This document shows, one piece after another, positions 416 to 15,302 of a stretch of DNA of 15,302 bases. Location: positions 1 to 15,302 of the forward strand of contig DAIDKG010000062.1 in the NCBI GenBank assembly GCA_027450125.1, read 5' to 3'. The notes beneath the pieces were generated by a model, which was given only the letters and a program-made list of their open reading frames with translations, searched no databases and was not told the DNA's origin. The position numbers and the translations under genes are program-made. How positions within the stretch are numbered: position 1 is the stretch's first letter; every line of letters begins with the position of its first letter. The DNA comes from Bordetella sp. Its GTDB lineage: Bacteria > Pseudomonadota > Gammaproteobacteria > Burkholderiales > Burkholderiaceae_B.

Positions 416-490
416 GCGGCCGTAGTTCAATGGATAGAATTAGGGTTTCCGAAGCCCTCGATACAGGTTCGATTCCTGTCGGCCGCGCCA
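416..490 (+). tRNA. tRNA-Arg (anticodon CCG)
   Basis: A full cloverleaf can be folded by eye. The acceptor stem pairs 416-422 with 480-486 (seven perfect pairs), with discriminator G487 and an encoded CCA at 488-490. The D stem is 425-428/437-440 with an AATGGATA loop. The anticodon stem is 442-446/454-458 with loop TTCCGAA, placing anticodon CCG at 449-451. The variable loop has four bases, and the T arm is 463-467/475-479 with loop TTCGATT. Anticodon CCG reads the arginine codon CGG. It is followed directly by an intrinsic terminator and appears to be a single-gene transcription unit. No integrase, att duplication or island signature is seen beside it. Confidence 0.96.
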
Positions 491-566: not shown

Positions 567-599
567 GCAGGCCACGTCCGCGATCAGGACGCGGCCTGC
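567..599 (-). terminator. Hairpin over the LysR stop codon, possible weak terminator
   Basis: An inverted repeat pairs 567-573 with 593-599 (seven pairs). After one mismatch it continues 575-579 with 587-591 (five pairs), leaving a seven-base loop. The stop codon of the LysR gene (584-586) lies at the loop/stem border. Read on the minus strand the stem is followed only by AATCCTTATT, a poor U tract. Termination is therefore possible but not strong; transcript 3'-end protection is an alternative role. Confidence 0.4.
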
Positions 600-1474
600 T
601 GGTCCCAGCGGCAGTCCGCCATCCACTTGCTGAACAGCGTGACCTTCAATTGCCGGGCCACGCATCCGGGATACACGAAGTAATAGCGCGAGCCGGTTTC
701 CACGGCGAGATCGAACGGCGTCACAAGGCGGTTGGCCGCAAGATCCTCGGCGACCAGGGTGCGGTCGCCGATGGCGATGCCGAAACCCTGCATGGCCGCG
801 CTGGTCGCAAGATCGAGCGACTGGAACGTGGGCCCGGCATTCGCGTCGACGCAGGTCGTGCCGGCGCGGCCGAGCCACAGTTTCCAGTCCGCATGGTCGC
901 GCGTCGGGTGCAGCAGGGTGTACTGCGCCAGATCGTCGGGGCTGGCCAGCGGATGCTGCTGCATGAGTTCCGGCGTGCAGACCGGGGTCAGGTGCTCGTC
1001 GAAGAGCGGCACCGCATGGACGTCCGGGCCGGGCGAGGAGCCGTAGATGATGGCGGCATCGAACGGCTCGGCCTGGAAATCGACCTCGTGATGCCACGTC
1101 GTTGTGATCTGCACCTGGAAGTCCGGATGCTCGGTCTGGAACCGCATGATGCGCGGGATCATCCAGCGCATGACGCAGGTCGGCACTTTCAATGCGAGTT
1201 CGGTGCGTTGGCGGGTGAGGCTGTCCGAGGTTTCCTCGATGCGGTTGAAGCTGTCGCGTACCGCGGGCAGAAGCTGCTCGCCCTCGGCTGTGAGAGTCAG
1301 GCCCTTGGGCGAACGCCTGAATAGCGGAAAGCAGTAATACTCTTCCAGCGCGAGTATCTGGCGGCTGACCGCGCCCTGCGTCAGGCACAGATGATCGGCC
1401 GCGCGCGTGAAGCTGCCGTAGCGGGCGACCGTCTCGAAAACCTGTAAAGCGTTCAGGGGTGGAAGGCGCCTCAT
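584..1474 (-). CDS. LysR-family transcriptional regulator, GcvA-like
   Basis: The 296-residue product has the usual length for LysR regulators. The N-terminal winged helix-turn-helix (about residues 5-64) carries the GcvA-type opening PPLNALQVFETVARYGSFTR, followed by an AVSRQI recognition-helix segment. The rest is a periplasmic-binding-protein-like effector domain (for example MRWMIPRIMRFQTEHPDF and FDAAIIYG). I chose ATG at 1474 over the upstream in-frame start at 1528 because the family normally begins a few residues before PPLNAL, and a GGAGAA site lies 9 nt upstream of this ATG. The gene follows the decarboxylase/aldehyde dehydrogenase pair in the same direction after a 153-nt gap, so it may be read from that operon, from its own promoter, or both. 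Regulation of that operon is inferred from linkage and from the dyad at 4892-4910; the effector is unknown. Confidence 0.9.
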   Translation of the reverse strand: MRRLPPLNALQVFETVARYGSFTRAADHLCLTQGAVSRQILALEEYYCFPLFRRSPKGLTLTAEGEQLLPAVRDSFNRIEETSDSLTRQRTELALKVPTCVMRWMIPRIMRFQTEHPDFQVQITTTWHHEVDFQAEPFDAAIIYGSSPGPDVHAVPLFDEHLTPVCTPELMQQHPLASPDDLAQYTLLHPTRDHADWKLWLGRAGTTCVDANAGPTFQSLDLATSAAMQGFGIAIGDRTLVAEDLAANRLVTPFDLAVETGSRYYFVYPGCVARQLKVTLFSKWMADCRWDQQAAS

Positions 1475-1549
1475 GGCGGGCGGTTCTCCGGTCTGGCGGA
1501 CTGTGCACGGGCCGGCCTGCCAGCGCACGCAGCCCGTTTGCCGCCGTCG

Positions 1550-8267: not shown

Positions 8268-10358
8268 ATGAGTCAAAGCGGACAGCCCTTGTTCCAATAC
8301 CTGGTGACCGAAGCCGACACCCTGTTGCGCAGCTTGTGCAGCAACGCGCTGGTCGGGGTATTTGTGGTTCAGGACGGGCGCTTTGTCTACGTCAACGAGA
8401 GGTTGGCGGACATGTTCGGCTATGCATCGGCCGAGTTGTGCGCGGGCATGACCTCGCAGGAGCTGACCGCCGAGCATGATCGTGCGCGCGTCGCCGGCGA
8501 GATCGCCCGGCGCATGAGCGGGGACAAGCAGGCCTGTGCCTATGAGTTCCAGGGCTTGCGGCGCGACGGTTCCCTTTTCGACGCCGAAGTGTTCAGCGTG
8601 ACGGTGAGCTACCGCAATACGCCGGCCACCATCGGCCTGCTGCAGGACATATCCGAGCGCCGCCGCGCCGAACGTGATGTGGCCGATCAGCTGCGGTTCG
8701 TCACCCGCCTGGTGGACACCATTCCCAATCCGGTGTTCTACAAGGATGTGAACGGGTGCTACCTGGGCTGCAACCGCGCGTTCGAAGAGTTCGTCGGACT
8801 GCCCCGTGACCGGATCGTGGGCCGCACGGCATACGATCTGTCGCCGCCCGATCTCGCCTCGATATACACCGACGCCGACAAGGCGCTGTTCGCGGCACGC
8901 GGCACCCAGGCCTACGAGGCGACGGTGATGTACGGCAAGGATGCGGTCCGGCGCGATGTGATGTTCTACAAAGCCACCTTCGATAAGGCCGACGGTACGC
9001 TGGGCGGCCTGGTCGGGGTGATCCTGGACATCAGCGAGCGCAAGCAGATGGAGCAGGCCCGGCACGACGCCTACTACGATGCCTTGACCGGCCTGCCCAA
9101 TCTGCGGTTGCTGCGTGACAGGCTGTCCGAAGAGTTGCTGCGCGCCAAGCGGCAGGAAGAATCCCTGGCGCTGCTGTTCATCGACCTGGACCGCTTCAAG
9201 GAAGTGAACGACACGCTGGGCCATCACGTCGGCGACGAACTGCTCAAGCAGGCGGCGCGGCGCATCAGCTCGGCGCTGCGCGCTAGCGACACGGTGGCGC
9301 GCCTGGGAGGCGACGAGTTTGCCGTGCTCCTGCCGCAAATGGCCGACGCTTCCGCGGCCGGCCTGGTGGCGCAGAAGATCCTGCAGCTGCTGTCCGAGCC
9401 GTACGACCTGGAAGGCAGGCAGGTCCACGTGACGGGCAGCATCGGCATTGCCGTCTATCCGCAGGACGGCACGGACGGCACCTTGCTCAGCTACGCCGAC
9501 CAGGCCATGTATGCCGCCAAGGCCCAGGGCAAGAACGCGTTCTGCTATTTCACGCCGTCCATGCAGGTGCAGGCCAGGCTGCGGCTGGACCTGGGCAACG
9601 ACCTGCGCCAGGCGGTGCACGAGCAGCAGTTCGAGGTGCACTACCAGCCCATCGTGGATCTTGTCACCGGCCAGATCCTCCGCGCCGAAGCGCTGCTGCG
9701 CTGGCCGCATCCGGCGCGCGGCATGGTGCCGCCGGACGAATTCATCACCACCGCCGAAGATATCGGCCTCATCGACGCGATCGGCGACCAGGTGTTTCGC
9801 CAGGCGCTGGAGGTGGCGGCCTGGTGGCGCGAGCGGCAGGCCGGCGCCCGGATCTGCGTCAACGTCTCGCCGCGCCAGTTCATCAGCGGCAGCTGCCGCG
9901 CCTGGCTGGATGTCCTGCGGCTGGCGGCGCTGCCGCCCGACTTGCTGTCTGTCGAGATCGTCGAGAAGGTGCTGCTGGACGAACGGCCGATGGTGATGCA
10001 GACCCTGCAGGAATTGCGCGCCGCCGGCATGGCGGTGAGCATCGATGATTTCGGCACCGGCTACAGCGCCCTGTCCTGTCTGAAGAAATTCGATCTGGGC
10101 GAACTGAAGATCGATCATTCCTTCATCAGCGCACTGACATCGAGCGGCAGCGACCAGACCATCGTGCAGGCCATCATCGCCATGGCGCACAAACTGGGTC
10201 TGAAGGTGGTGGCCGAAGGCGTGGAAACGCAGGCGCAGTGCGACCTGCTGCGCGCCGCCGGCTGCGATTATGCCCAGGGCTACCTGTTCGCGCGGCCCAT
10301 GCCGCGCGAACAGTTCGCCACCTGGCTCAAGCAGGCAGCATCTCGTTCAGCGCTTTGA
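8268..10358 (+). CDS. PAS-PAS-GGDEF-EAL cyclic-di-GMP signalling protein
   Basis: The 696-residue soluble protein has no membrane segment. Two N-terminal PAS domains (about 20-130 and 145-258) precede a GGDEF domain (about 265-430) and an EAL domain (about 440-690). The cyclase motif RLGGDEF has its signature at 347-351, with metal ligand Asp306 and substrate residues Asn314 and Asp323. The inhibitory I-site RxxD is intact (Arg338-Asp341, five residues before GGDEF). The EAL motif is Glu474-Ala-Leu, and the other phosphodiesterase residues are present: Asn532, Glu563, Asp593-Asp594, Lys614, Glu650 and Gln670. It should therefore be able both to make and to degrade c-di-GMP, with the PAS domains sensing a small ligand or redox state in the cytosol. 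It is divergent from gabT. The usual Arg of the DxLTGLPNR motif is Leu279. Net activity cannot be read from sequence. Confidence 0.94.
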   Translation: MSQSGQPLFQYLVTEADTLLRSLCSNALVGVFVVQDGRFVYVNERLADMFGYASAELCAGMTSQELTAEHDRARVAGEIARRMSGDKQACAYEFQGLRRDGSLFDAEVFSVTVSYRNTPATIGLLQDISERRRAERDVADQLRFVTRLVDTIPNPVFYKDVNGCYLGCNRAFEEFVGLPRDRIVGRTAYDLSPPDLASIYTDADKALFAARGTQAYEATVMYGKDAVRRDVMFYKATFDKADGTLGGLVGVILDISERKQMEQARHDAYYDALTGLPNLRLLRDRLSEELLRAKRQEESLALLFIDLDRFKEVNDTLGHHVGDELLKQAARRISSALRASDTVARLGGDEFAVLLPQMADASAAGLVAQKILQLLSEPYDLEGRQVHVTGSIGIAVYPQDGTDGTLLSYADQAMYAAKAQGKNAFCYFTPSMQVQARLRLDLGNDLRQAVHEQQFEVHYQPIVDLVTGQILRAEALLRWPHPARGMVPPDEFITTAEDIGLIDAIGDQVFRQALEVAAWWRERQAGARICVNVSPRQFISGSCRAWLDVLRLAALPPDLLSVEIVEKVLLDERPMVMQTLQELRAAGMAVSIDDFGTGYSALSCLKKFDLGELKIDHSFISALTSSGSDQTIVQAIIAMAHKLGLKVVAEGVETQAQCDLLRAAGCDYAQGYLFARPMPREQFATWLKQAASRSAL

Positions 10359-10403: not shown

Positions 10404-10451
10404 CATGAGGTAAAACTGCGGTTGTTCCAGTCAGAGTGATAAGTGTTTCCC

Positions 10452-11006
10452 ATGCAGTCCAGAATCTTGCGCGGACCGCTGCGGCGCGCGCTTCGCGGCG
10501 CGGTGGTCATCGCCGCGCTGACCGCGGCCGTGCTGTTCGGCTTTCCCGGCCAGACGCGCCATTTCATGCAGATGCTGTCCGGCCAGGATGGCTCGCCCGA
10601 TCCCGTCACGATCTACCCGTATAACTTCACCTCGAAGGGGATCGACTATCTGGTCAGCCCCGGGCTGATAGCGTATTTGCCGCCCGACGCGGCCACTGGC
10701 AAGCTGGTGCTCAGGCAAGGCTACGTGCCGGCGCCCTCGGACAAAGGCCGTCTGCCGGTGCGCTGGCGCTACGTGACGGGCGCCAACGCGCCGCACGAAA
10801 GCGGCACCTATACCTATGGCGCCACGCTCGACTTGCCGGCCGCGCCGTCCAAGGCCGCGGTCCTGACGCTGCGCTTTTATCCCGGCGGCAGGATCGCGGC
10901 CCGCTACACCACGCATCCCGAGGTGGCCGAGCACGGCAACGTCGATCCTGCCTTGACGGGACCGGACTGGAAGACCAACACGCCCGCCGCCGGTCAGCTG
11001 CGGTAG
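10452..11006 (+). CDS. Small membrane-anchored protein of unknown function
   Basis: I do not recognise this 184-residue product. It starts with a basic N-terminus (several Arg in residues 4-15), followed by one hydrophobic segment at about 16-32 that fits an uncleaved signal anchor. There is no lipobox cysteine. The rest is polar and probably periplasmic. I prefer ATG 10452 over GTG 10443 because the GTG adds only three residues and neither start has a clear ribosome-binding site. The gene is 93 nt downstream of the PAS-GGDEF-EAL gene in the same direction, so co-transcription is possible. It ends by overlapping the convergent aldolase-like gene by 13 bases. Codon use looks genuine. No enzyme motif was seen. 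Confidence 0.7.
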   Translation: MQSRILRGPLRRALRGAVVIAALTAAVLFGFPGQTRHFMQMLSGQDGSPDPVTIYPYNFTSKGIDYLVSPGLIAYLPPDAATGKLVLRQGYVPAPSDKGRLPVRWRYVTGANAPHESGTYTYGATLDLPAAPSKAAVLTLRFYPGGRIAARYTTHPEVAEHGNVDPALTGPDWKTNTPAAGQLR

Positions 11007-11758
11007 TCGGGCTGGTCTTTCTCGACCAGACGCAGGCTGGCCTGCCAGAAGGCATCCGAATAAAAGGAATCCGCGTCGGCGGCGTACTGCTCGGCGGTGA
11101 GCCGGCATACGGCTTGGCTGGGCATGCGCAGCGGGACGCCGCCGGCCTGGGCCGCCACTTGCGCCTGGCAGGCGCGCTCCAGGAAGTAGATTTCCTGAAA
11201 GGCCGTGGACGCGGTGTGGCCCGCGGCCAGCAGGCCATGGTTGCGCAGGATCATGGCCCTGTTGTCCGGGCCGAGGTCGGCCACCAGGCGTTCGCGCTCG
11301 TCCAGATCGAGCGCGATGCCTTCGTAGTCGTGATAGCTCAGCTTGCCGTAGTACTTCAGCGCATGCTGGCTGATGGGAAGCAGGCCGTTTTCCTGGGCGG
11401 ACACGGCAATGCCGGCTGCCGTGTGCGTGTGGATCACGAAATTCAGATCGTGGCGCGCCATGTGCACGGCCGAATGGATGGTGAAGCCGGCCTTGTTCAC
11501 GCGCAGTTCTTCGGCCGGGCGGCCGGCCTCGATGACATTGCCCCGCTGGTCTATTTTCACCAGGTCGCTGGCGCGCATCTCGTGGAACATCACGCCGTAG
11601 CGGTTGATGAGAAATTGATCCGCCTGGCCGGGCAGGCGCGCGGAGATGTGCGTATCGATGATATCGGTCATGCGGAAATGCGCGACCAGACGGTAGAGCG
11701 CGGCCAGGTCGCAGCGGGTCTGCCATTCTTCCTGGGCGACGTTCAGGGGATTGCCCAT
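10994..11758 (-). CDS. Class II aldolase/adducin-domain protein, adducin-type
   Basis: The 254-residue product is a single class II aldolase/adducin head domain. The three zinc-type histidines are present: His110 and His112 in IHTHTAAG, and His174 in LRNHGL. The catalytic glutamate of fuculose-phosphate aldolase, 19 residues before the first of these histidines, is Gly91 here. The NKAGFTIHSAVH segment and the later LLPISQHAL and YHDYEGI segments resemble adducin-head homologues more than sugar-phosphate aldolases. Activity may thus be a metal-dependent decarboxylation, dehydration or unknown reaction, not a FucA-type cleavage. Strong ribosome-binding site AAGGAGA, 4 nt before ATG 11758. It is last in the oxygenase-transporter operon, 73 nt after the ABC gene, suggesting action on the imported or oxidised compound. 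Confidence 0.88.
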   Translation of the reverse strand: MGNPLNVAQEEWQTRCDLAALYRLVAHFRMTDIIDTHISARLPGQADQFLINRYGVMFHEMRASDLVKIDQRGNVIEAGRPAEELRVNKAGFTIHSAVHMARHDLNFVIHTHTAAGIAVSAQENGLLPISQHALKYYGKLSYHDYEGIALDLDERERLVADLGPDNRAMILRNHGLLAAGHTASTAFQEIYFLERACQAQVAAQAGGVPLRMPSQAVCRLTAEQYAADADSFYSDAFWQASLRLVEKDQPDYRS

Positions 11759-11831
11759 GGTTTCTCCTTGATGGCGTGAAGCATGCCGTGCCGCATGCGG
11801 GCTTTGGCCCGGCCAGGCTTCGATACGGGAT

Positions 11832-13361
<1,530 letters not shown>

Positions 13362-13408
13362 GCGGGACTCTTCCAGTTTGCGCGGTCAGGCTCTTTCGGG
13401 TTTCTGGT

Positions 13409-14209
13409 TCACTCCACCGGAGCGATGTTGTACTTCTTGAGCAGTTTTTCGTATTGCCCGTTGGCGCGGATCGTGGCCATGGCTTTCTTGAGGGCATCCA
13501 TCAGCTGGGTGTTGCCCTTCTTGACGTACATGCCCAAGGTCTGCGGATAGACCAGGGCGGGAGAGCTGATGACCAGGCGATCCTTGGTGCGTTCGGCGAA
13601 CATGCGGGCTGCGCCGGCGATTTCCAGCTGGGCGTCCACGTTGCCGGACAGCAGGGCCTGCGATACTTCGGGCGCCGAGGGGAACTCGCTGACGGCGATG
13701 GCGCCCTTGCCCTCGGGCACGCAGGTCTTGGTCGACAGCGTCTGCAATGCCTTCACCCAGGTCGTGCCCTGCTCCAGGCCGACCTTCATGCCGCAAAGAT
13801 CCTGTTCGGTCCTGGGCTGCTTGGCGCTGCCCTTGCGCACCAGGATCAGGGCGCCGGTCTTGCCGTAGGGCAGGGCATCGGCCTGCGCCTGGCGTTCGGG
13901 CGTGACGTACATGCCGGAGATCACGACATCGAAATGCTCGGAACCCAGGCCCAGGATCAGGCCGGTGAACTTGGTGTCGACGAAGGTCGCCTTGTCTCCC
14001 ATGGCCTTGGCCAGCGCCTGCGCCAGTTCGGCATCGAAGCCCACGACCTTGCCGTGGTCCCAGGATTCGAACGGGGGATAGCTGATCTCCATGCCGACCT
14101 GCAGGTCGCCGGCCTTGAGCGTTGCGGCGGCGTGGGCGCTTGCGATACCGGCGCCAGCCAGGGCCGAGGCGACGAGCAGACGCTTGAACAGGGAAGTCTT
14201 CGAATTCAT
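13409..14209 (-). CDS. Periplasmic amino-acid-type solute-binding protein
   Basis: This 266-residue protein has a clear Sec signal peptide: basic N-terminus, hydrophobic core LLVASALAGAGIA, cleavage likely after AHA at residue 27. It belongs to the family 3 solute-binding proteins (SBP_bac_3). Typical elements are YPPFE (44-48), GFDAELAQALAK (58-69) and the ligand-carboxylate arginine segment MYVTPER (100-106). Cys139 and Cys163 could form a disulfide. I chose ATG 14209 over an upstream in-frame alternative start at 14245 because it gives a proper signal peptide and has AAGGA 7 nt upstream. It captures the substrate in the periplasm for the fused ABC transporter encoded just downstream. The ligand cannot be named; the fold suggests an alpha-amino acid or close analogue. 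Confidence 0.93.
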   Translation of the reverse strand: MNSKTSLFKRLLVASALAGAGIASAHAAATLKAGDLQVGMEISYPPFESWDHGKVVGFDAELAQALAKAMGDKATFVDTKFTGLILGLGSEHFDVVISGMYVTPERQAQADALPYGKTGALILVRKGSAKQPRTEQDLCGMKVGLEQGTTWVKALQTLSTKTCVPEGKGAIAVSEFPSAPEVSQALLSGNVDAQLEIAGAARMFAERTKDRLVISSPALVYPQTLGMYVKKGNTQLMDALKKAMATIRANGQYEKLLKKYNIAPVE

Positions 14210-14263
14210 GGTGTGTTCCTTGTAGAAGATGACGGGAAAGTTCAAATGCGCAGGCCGGTGCGA

Positions 14264-15302
14264 TCAGGCTGCTGGGGTATTGGCCTTTTTTAAATGGCCG
14301 AAACTGGATGTGGGGCTGGCGCGGTCCGGCATCTTCAATTCGCCGGACTGCACCTTGCGCTTGAGATACCGATAGGTCTGCAGAGCCTGGCTCCACATGT
14401 GTTCGCCGATGCTGATCTCGCCGTATGTGCCGGCGGCGGCCTCCGCCCGCGCGGCGAAGGCCGGCAGCGGCTGGATGAGGGTGTGATAGTCGCAGGCATA
14501 GAACAGCGGGAAGGAATAGCGTTCGGCCGACACCTTGCGCACGCGGTGCGCGGTGGCCTGGAAGGCGCCCGCGGTCATCACTTCCAGCATGTCGCCGATA
14601 TTGACCACGAAGGCGGGCACCCCGTCGACCGACAGGGGTGGCGTGTCGATCCAGGTGCCCTCGTCGTTCATGACCTCCAGCCCTGCTTCGTCCGACAGCA
14701 GCAGGGTGAAGCATTCGTAGTCGGTGTGCGCGCCCATGCCGGGCGCGTCTGCGGCCTGCGCGTCGTAGGGGTAGTGGATCAGGCGCAGTTTGGAAGGCGG
14801 ACACTGCGCCATGCCGTCGAAATGGTCCTCGGGCAGGCCCAGCGCCAGCGCGAAGCCGCGAAATAGCGTGCGCCCCAACGCGAAGACGTCGCCGTAGTAC
14901 GCCGAGACGCGTTCGCGGAACCCCGGCAGTGCGGGCCATTGGTTGTAGCCGATGAGCGGCGTGCCGGCCTTCACATAAGGATGTTCAGCGTCGGCCTCGA
15001 AGCCGATGTCCAGGGCTTCCTTGCGATCCGGATTCGCGCCGCTGCCGTAGACTTCTTCGCCTTGCGGCACGTAACCCTTGTGGCCGGGCGACTTGGCGAT
15101 GTAGTGATCCATCTTCCAGTCCATGGGCTGCGCGAAGAATTCGCGCGCCGCCTGGCGCAGCCCGTCGATCGATGTCCGGGAAATGCCGTGGCCGGTCACA
15201 TAGAGAAAGCCGACTTCGCGTGCCGCGCGGCCCAGCTCTTGGGCCACGGCCTGGCGCGCGACCGCGTCGGCCGAAAACAGGCCGCTTACGTCGACCACCG
15301 GA
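14264..15302 (-). CDS. 2-oxoglutarate/Fe(II) oxygenase, isopenicillin N synthase family (N-terminus outside window)
   Basis: The frame runs off the right edge: the residues at the border read PVVDVSGLF, the usual start of the DIOX_N domain, so only a few N-terminal residues are missing. GTG at 15296-15298 is in frame but falls inside this motif and is probably not the start. The visible 344 residues contain DIOX_N (about 1-110) and the 2OG-FeII core. Counting from that GTG, the iron facial triad is His191-x-Asp193 (GAHTDYECF) and His251 (ATAHRV), and the cosubstrate-binding RxS motif is Arg260-Tyr-Ser262. Such soluble enzymes hydroxylate, desaturate or ring-close small amino-acid-like substrates. 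It is the first visible gene of an operon with a binding protein (54 nt downstream), transporter and aldolase homologue, so its substrate is likely the imported compound. The exact reaction is unknown. Confidence 0.9.

Follow-up and report, generated by a model that had tools for sequence, protein, structure and literature searches.

The window analysed here is the whole of contig DAIDKG010000062.1 (C62; 15,302 nucleotides) from the Bordetella sp. assembly GCA_027450125.1, a genome that is 73% complete and divided among 600 contigs. One end of it carries genes for a 2-oxoglutarate (2OG)/Fe(II) oxygenase (OXY), a family 3 solute-binding protein (SBP), an ATP-binding cassette (ABC) permease fused to its ATPase and an adducin-type class II aldolase homologue (ALD). 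The window holds the distal part of a longer operon, gbuA-SPIE-OXY-SBP-ABC-ALD, with a divergent LysR-type gene; gbuA is a guanidinobutyrase-like gene and SPIE is xylose-isomerase-like. The link of this operon to guanidino acids is well supported. We favour a mechanism, with a probability of about 0.5 for the whole of it, in which the operon imports and oxidises a guanidino carboxylic acid and so feeds a route from 4-guanidinobutyrate to 4-aminobutyrate (GABA). If this is right, the operon is a new entry in arginine and guanidino-compound metabolism, and many 2OG oxygenases that are now orphans gain a substrate class.

Reconstruction and conservation of the operon

A sequence-only reading of the window had placed OXY, SBP, ABC and ALD in one same-strand operon with short gaps. 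The gaps are 54 nt (OXY-SBP), 47 nt (SBP-ABC) and 73 nt (ABC-ALD), and Pfam agrees with all four of the families then assigned. Searching the same genome with GbuA and SPIE of relatives gave contig C106, on which GbuA (70% identity) adjoins SPIE (61%) and a LysR-type gene lies upstream of GbuA in divergent orientation. SPIE ends at position 29 of C106, and an ATG overlaps its stop codon, with codons for MKPTHPAPGST. Protein P0001 (362 residues, 99% identical to OXY) has the N-terminus MKPTHPAPGST, then six residues, then the first residues of the OXY of the window. The end of C106 and the N-terminus of P0001 therefore give the order LysR / gbuA-SPIE-OXY-SBP-ABC-ALD; the join between C106 and C62 was bridged via P0001, with the few bases between the contigs lying outside the assembly.

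At least 591 related stretches were matched in one scan, and the best 80 loci (OXY 63–72% identical) were compared, with neighbouring genes counted within 10 kb of OXY. These loci are the nearest relatives only; their titles carry 19 genus-level labels and 37 are from Pseudomonas. Loci that share ancestry do not count as independent, and Fisher values, which assume that they do, are not taken as proof. SPIE is present in 79 of the 80 and directly upstream of OXY in 78. SBP and ABC are each found in 63 loci, ALD in 47, a LysR gene in 36 and gbuA in 37, always on the strand of OXY (30 upstream, seven downstream). In the Acetobacteraceae loci a TonB receptor and a different ABC system of the amino-acid type are used. 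The order OXY-SBP-ABC-ALD on one strand recurs in 33 loci, and SBP and ABC accompany OXY in 63, so the set is not a chance one; gene order is often kept in relatives outside the family to which the window belongs. The four genes proposed earlier as a unit thus belong to a real operon, but with SPIE so constant and ALD in only 47 loci they are not the natural unit, and SPIE and gbuA were missing from the set.

A deiminase-like gene occurs in 14 loci, 13 of which also have a carbamoylase-type amidohydrolase, and never in the same locus as gbuA (0/80). In Psychromonas (L071) the carbamoylase/deiminase pair takes the position immediately ahead of SPIE that gbuA usually occupies. Guanidinobutyrase releases urea and a deiminase with a carbamoylase proceeds via a ureido acid; both would be expected to convert a guanidino acid to an amino acid. 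AruI, a 2-ketoarginine decarboxylase, is encoded in 13 loci, all of them gbuA loci from Pseudomonas or Stutzerimonas. The presence of gbuA (37/80), the deiminase-like gene (14/80) and AruI (13/80) within 10 kb of OXY points to a guanidino acid. The amino-acid-like substrate of the sequence-only reading is thereby narrowed, while its amino-acid-type importer stands. A GhrA-like 2-hydroxyacid reductase gene was also seen in 30 loci (among L009–L088), 29 of them with ALD and none with AruI; since AruI is limited to Pseudomonas and Stutzerimonas, this exclusion may reflect lineage only.

The class of the ureohydrolase was assessed on the protein of locus L049, to which the GbuA of the Bordetella genome (on C106) is 70% identical. 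It scores 501.7 bits to the guanidinobutyrase of Pseudomonas aeruginosa (PDB entry 3nio), against 313.4 bits to guanidinopropionase and at most 177.9 bits to agmatinase.

Might these guanidino genes be chance or generic neighbours of a SPIE-OXY-SBP-ABC core that serves an unrelated compound? Neither gbuA nor a deiminase gene lies within 10 kb in 29 of the 80 loci, as this would predict. gbuA was found elsewhere in 20 of 20 of these genomes that were searched; all 20 are pseudomonads and there is no baseline rate for comparison, so the point is weak. Five of the distant gbuA genes were extracted and all five lie beside a LysR gene, one (L102) also with AruI. On the other side, gbuA or a deiminase gene lies within 10 kb in 51 loci, from 17 of the 19 genus-level labels; gbuA is always on the strand of OXY, yet in two positions; and the MgdL-paired relatives of OXY described below independently indicate the same class of compound. 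We consider a chance association very unlikely.

The oxygenase and its MgdL-paired relatives

The HxD...H and RxS motifs that the sequence-only reading had found intact correspond to H209-x-D211, H269 and R278-Y-S280 of P0001. The iron triad (H209, D211 and H269) and R278 are invariant in 23 sequences, and S280 is nearly so. All of the 120 best OXY relatives have the motif R[YF][SA]F, and 111 have a Glu at the place aligned with Glu84 of the ethylene-forming enzyme (EFE); the region of EFE Arg316 is outside the alignment. Glu99 had been considered as an invariant guanidinium binder and was dropped in that role, as the residue is Ser or Ala in nine of the 120; it is suggestive only. OXY has ∼22% identity to EFE, a likeness of fold and in part of active site. 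OXY-type proteins carry the annotation ‘isopenicillin N synthase family’. They are common: one protein cluster named for Klebsiella pneumoniae holds 4921 sequences. L007 is a 5.37-Mb Klebsiella record (CP125156.1) that is filed as a plasmid and resembles a chromosome. A literature search, with most subscription journals outside its coverage, gave no published function for an OXY-type oxygenase, no paper on this operon and, as had been supposed, no named pathway with this gene set.

A system for methylguanidine bears on the possible chemistry of OXY. In Vreelandella boliviensis the 2OG oxygenase MgdH hydroxylates methylguanidine and MgdL, for which D49 and R51 are required, speeds the break-up of the hemiaminal (PMC12508155). 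Plasmid-borne distant relatives led to an Acinetobacter locus, L091, in which an OXY gene (44%) is followed by a gene for an unnamed protein of 293 residues, the pair lying near genes for allophanate hydrolase and a urea/guanidine carboxylase. A search of 341 genomes of one order gave homologues of this protein, which we treat as MgdL homologues, in 11. An OXY-family gene stands directly before the MgdL homologue in all 11 loci, with 46–54% identity to the OXY of the window; PaIPNS (PA4191; PDB entry 6jyv) is more distant from it. All 13 MgdL homologues retain the D-x-R motif. Three of the 11 loci have guanidine carboxylase genes with guanidine-I and guanidine-II riboswitches, and guanidine riboswitches were found in three of 13 MgdL-linked sources (L091, L089 and L117–L127). 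A guanidine-II riboswitch lies between cgdB-like and gca-like genes, as PMC12508155 describes it in V. boliviensis. In the vicinity of the OXY-MgdL pair of L119 (427–8300), an aminotransferase, a 2-hydroxyacid reductase and an amidase-like gene were matched weakly.

The two settings are mutually exclusive: no MgdL match was found at the 80 OXY loci, and no SPIE at the 11 MgdL loci. MgdL also had no match in 369 genomes of the class to which the window belongs, nor in the Bordetella genome itself (73% complete). In a tree of 19 oxygenases the 14 window-type rows (support 91/99) form one group and the three L089–L091 rows (97/96) another, with an oxygenase from Paraburkholderia sprentiae (L008) outside both; full support is reached on only five of the 16 inner branches, and one of the outgroup rows is very long. 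The P. sprentiae locus is a bridge between the SPIE-type and MgdL-type settings. Its SPIE-OXY pair lies beside a guanidine carboxylase cluster, no match to MgdL was found there, and it has two guanidine-I riboswitches and one guanidine-II riboswitch (at 8331–8454, 11281–11413 and 13018–13065). The operon of the window shares with the MgdH/MgdL module the oxygenase family, an adjoining second protein and an ABC importer in the operon. It differs in that the second protein is SPIE, a TIM barrel, rather than MgdL, and in that the window-type neighbours are gbuA/AruI or deiminase/carbamoylase genes rather than guanidine carboxylase with a riboswitch.

This difference bears on whether OXY could release guanidine from arginine, homoarginine or 4-guanidinobutyrate through hydroxylation of the carbon that bears the guanidino group. 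EFE and the plant homoarginine-6-hydroxylase (HA6H) carry out such chemistry on arginine and homoarginine (PMC11018352, PMC12329707 and PMC11025135), OXY resembles EFE in fold and partly in its active site, and the P. sprentiae relative adjoins guanidine carboxylase genes and guanidine riboswitches. However, guanidine carboxylase, its deiminase subunits (carboxyguanidine deiminase) and allophanate hydrolase had no match in any of the 80 loci, and for this reason free guanidine was set aside as the product of the window type. No guanidine riboswitch was found in the nine window-type sources scanned (the window, C106, L059, L071, L009, L014, L016, L029 and L051), which is in line with a product that is not free guanidine, although absence is weak evidence. 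The occurrence of gbuA or a deiminase gene near OXY in 51 loci suggests retention of the guanidino group on the carbon skeleton. Release of free guanidine by the window-type operon is thus quite unlikely.

Partner proteins and the proposed route

The ligand site of the SBP was examined in an alignment of 63 sequences (the window and 62 of the 63 SBP loci, with L042 dropped) and in alignments to AncQR and others. In all 63 the Arg that we take to bind the carboxylate is kept, the presumed α-ammonium Asp is replaced by Ile and the Ser72-type residue by Tyr (these labels assume LAO residue numbering). Ile in place of the Asp throughout suggests that the ligand is probably a carboxylate without an ordinary α-ammonium group, and on this evidence a plain L-amino acid is an unlikely substrate. 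The SBP also falls below the curated cut-offs for the arginine/lysine-binding proteins LAO (134.5 versus 256.35 bits) and ArtJ (105.2 versus 510 bits). SPIE has the TIM-barrel fold of the sugar isomerase/epimerase superfamily and metal-type residues, which we label on the assumption that they correspond to those of the epimerase fold; a sequence comparison of the L059 SPIE with the PDB gave no match at E ≤ 1e-5.

PDB relatives of ALD by sequence are 3ocr, the adducins, TqaM (93.7 bits) and NovR (88.4 bits), and it falls below the FucA equivalog cut-offs (for example TIGR01086, 28.9 versus 400.25). By sequence it falls on the adducin/TqaM/NovR side of its family, where it may split, decarboxylate or otherwise act on its substrate; the place corresponding to what we take to be the catalytic Glu73 of FucA was judged by eye only. 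Since 33 of the 80 loci have no ALD, whereas 79 have SPIE, readings centred on the aldolase were dropped. Of the sequence of import, oxidation and cleavage that the sequence-only reading had suggested, the first two steps are in keeping with the amino-acid-type importer and the 2OG oxygenase, whereas the cleavage need not be the work of ALD.

In the TqaL/TqaM and NovR systems, too, an adducin-type class II aldolase homologue accompanies a 2OG oxygenase. These systems differ in being biosynthetic, and we know of no importer or SPIE in their pathways. One alternative is a plain arginine/2-ketoarginine route, with OXY, or an ALD acting in the manner of NovR or TqaM, oxidatively decarboxylating 2-ketoarginine to 4-guanidinobutyrate. 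The bit scores of ALD and the presence of gbuA in the same operon are consistent with it, as is the occurrence of a 2OG oxygenase and TqaM in one pathway, from L-valine to 2-aminoisobutyrate (PMC10764440). Against it, ALD and AruI occur together in eight of the 80 loci and are therefore not simple substitutes, and the most constant partner, SPIE, would have no task. We give this route little probability.

In the mechanism that we favour, the importer would bring in a guanidino carboxylic acid, probably without a free α-ammonium group and with an extra N-substituent, most simply N-methyl. OXY, as a relative of the MgdL-paired oxygenases, would hydroxylate the carbon attached to a guanidine nitrogen. 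SPIE would speed the break-up of the resulting hemiaminal, a role that the unrelated MgdL has in the methylguanidine system, and the substituent would leave. The trimmed guanidino acid would then reach 4-guanidinobutyrate, directly or via 2-ketoarginine (with AruI and an aldehyde dehydrogenase; ALD may serve here). GbuA would convert 4-guanidinobutyrate to GABA and urea, a step taken in other lineages by the deiminase and carbamoylase, and GabT and GabD would carry GABA to succinate. The operon would thus appear, by analogy, to follow the dioxygenase-plus-lyase logic known for methylguanidine in a new form. Gene content, gene order, families and mutual exclusions are read from the sequences themselves; which compound is taken up, what OXY, SPIE and ALD each catalyse and which way the flux runs are inferred from them. 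A bolder version, which we regard as doubtful, is that hemiaminal lyases of a second, non-homologous class, represented by SPIE, evolved beside one family of 2OG oxygenases, and that the operon is an unrecognised route by which Pseudomonadota associated with plants, the gut and the sea degrade N-methylated arginine derivatives (such as 2-keto or 4-guanidinobutyrate forms of mono- and dimethylarginine) to GABA.

The later steps resemble the arginine transaminase pathway of P. aeruginosa, which comprises AruI, KauB, GbuA, GabT and GabD. Genes for AruI, an aldehyde dehydrogenase, GabT and GabD are present in the window and gbuA is on the adjoining contig C106; this gene set differs in the addition of OXY, SPIE, ALD and a dedicated ABC importer. 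The GabT and GabD of the window presumably supply the steps downstream of the OXY operon, and the position of the aldehyde dehydrogenase gene suggests the role of KauB.

Several observations weigh against the favoured mechanism. N-demethylation leaves ALD and GhrA without a clear job, and no formaldehyde-handling genes were seen, although no search was aimed at them. The link to the MgdH and MgdL of V. boliviensis is one of motif and context. The L049 ureohydrolase also passes the NCBI agmatinase model (208.1 bits; cut-off 174.3), nine of the 120 best OXY relatives are without the Glu aligned to EFE Glu84, and the 29 loci that have neither gbuA nor a deiminase gene nearby count here too. There are also two exceptions to the partner rule. 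In Alteromonas lipolytica (L087, 10025–21038) OXY is followed by ALD without SPIE, with deiminase-like and carbamoylase genes ∼8 kb away, and in Sphingobium (L090) neither SPIE nor MgdL lies within 10 kb of an OXY relative that groups with the MgdL-linked oxygenases.

The site of hydroxylation might instead be the α-carbon of arginine or of an N-α-substituted arginine of the opine or betaine type, with SPIE splitting the carbinolamine into 2-ketoarginine and an amine and AruI decarboxylating the former. The SBP, with no α-ammonium Asp and a conserved Tyr at the Ser72-type place, would suit such a ligand, and 13 of the 80 loci encode AruI a short way downstream of the OXY module (directly after it, with an aldehyde dehydrogenase, in L029). 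Among the 80, however, AruI near OXY is limited to Pseudomonas and Stutzerimonas, and the loci that have no AruI would still need a decarboxylating step. An ordinary transaminase route to 2-ketoarginine is also possible, GabT being the sole transaminase searched for. MgdH, EFE and HA6H, moreover, oxidise the carbon next to the guanidine and not the α-carbon, according to the papers cited above. Attack at the α-carbon is on balance unlikely.

Other features of the window

Table 1. Protein-coding genes of the OXY operon and of the gab/AruI block in the window
Feature	Position	Strand	Basis and remarks
OXY: 2OG/Fe(II) oxygenase, isopenicillin N synthase-like	15302-14264	-	Pfam DIOX_N and 2OG-FeII_Oxy; 5' end open at contig end
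SBP: family 3 solute-binding protein	14209-13409	-	Pfam PF00497 (SBP_bac_3); ATG start; TTG at 14245 is an alternative start
ABC: polar amino acid (PAAT) permease fused to ATPase	13361-11832	-	PF00528 (BPD_transp_1), residues 36-221; PF00005 (ABC_tran), residues 277-431
ALD: adducin-type class II aldolase homologue	11758-10994	-	Pfam PF00596 (Aldolase_II); PRK07044 350 bits, cut-off 207
GabT: 4-aminobutyrate transaminase	7929-6667	-	TIGR00700 597.3 bits, cut-off 506.65
GabD: succinate-semialdehyde dehydrogenase	6593-5130	-	TIGR01780 717.3 bits, cut-off 646.35
AruI-like thiamine diphosphate-dependent 2-ketoarginine decarboxylase	4779-3088	-	PRK07524 (subfamily model) 857.6 bits, cut-off 500
ALDH: aldehyde dehydrogenase	3091-1628	-	Pfam Aldedh; 4-nt overlap with AruI

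The gab, AruI and aldehyde dehydrogenase genes share the strand of the OXY operon (Table 1). The aldehyde dehydrogenase reached no NCBIfam cut-off among the 25 best matches listed. The block ALDH-AruI-GabD-GabT is found in the same order, with 83–94% identity, in another genome of the genus (G091), and this speaks against misbinning of the contig. Among 267 further genomes of the family none has a match to OXY at E ≤ 1e-60, which suggests that this lineage probably acquired the OXY module recently.

Between the two groups of genes lie a PAS-GGDEF-EAL gene (8268–10358, plus strand), which separates the OXY operon from the gab genes, and a small opposite-strand open reading frame (10443–11006, plus strand; 187 residues) that overlaps ALD tail to tail by 13 nt and has no Pfam or NCBIfam match. 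A gene for a GcvA-type LysR regulator (584–1528, minus strand; 278.9 bits against a cut-off of 288) lies downstream of the aldehyde dehydrogenase gene, and a tRNA-Arg (CCG) gene (416–490, plus strand) is found just past its end.

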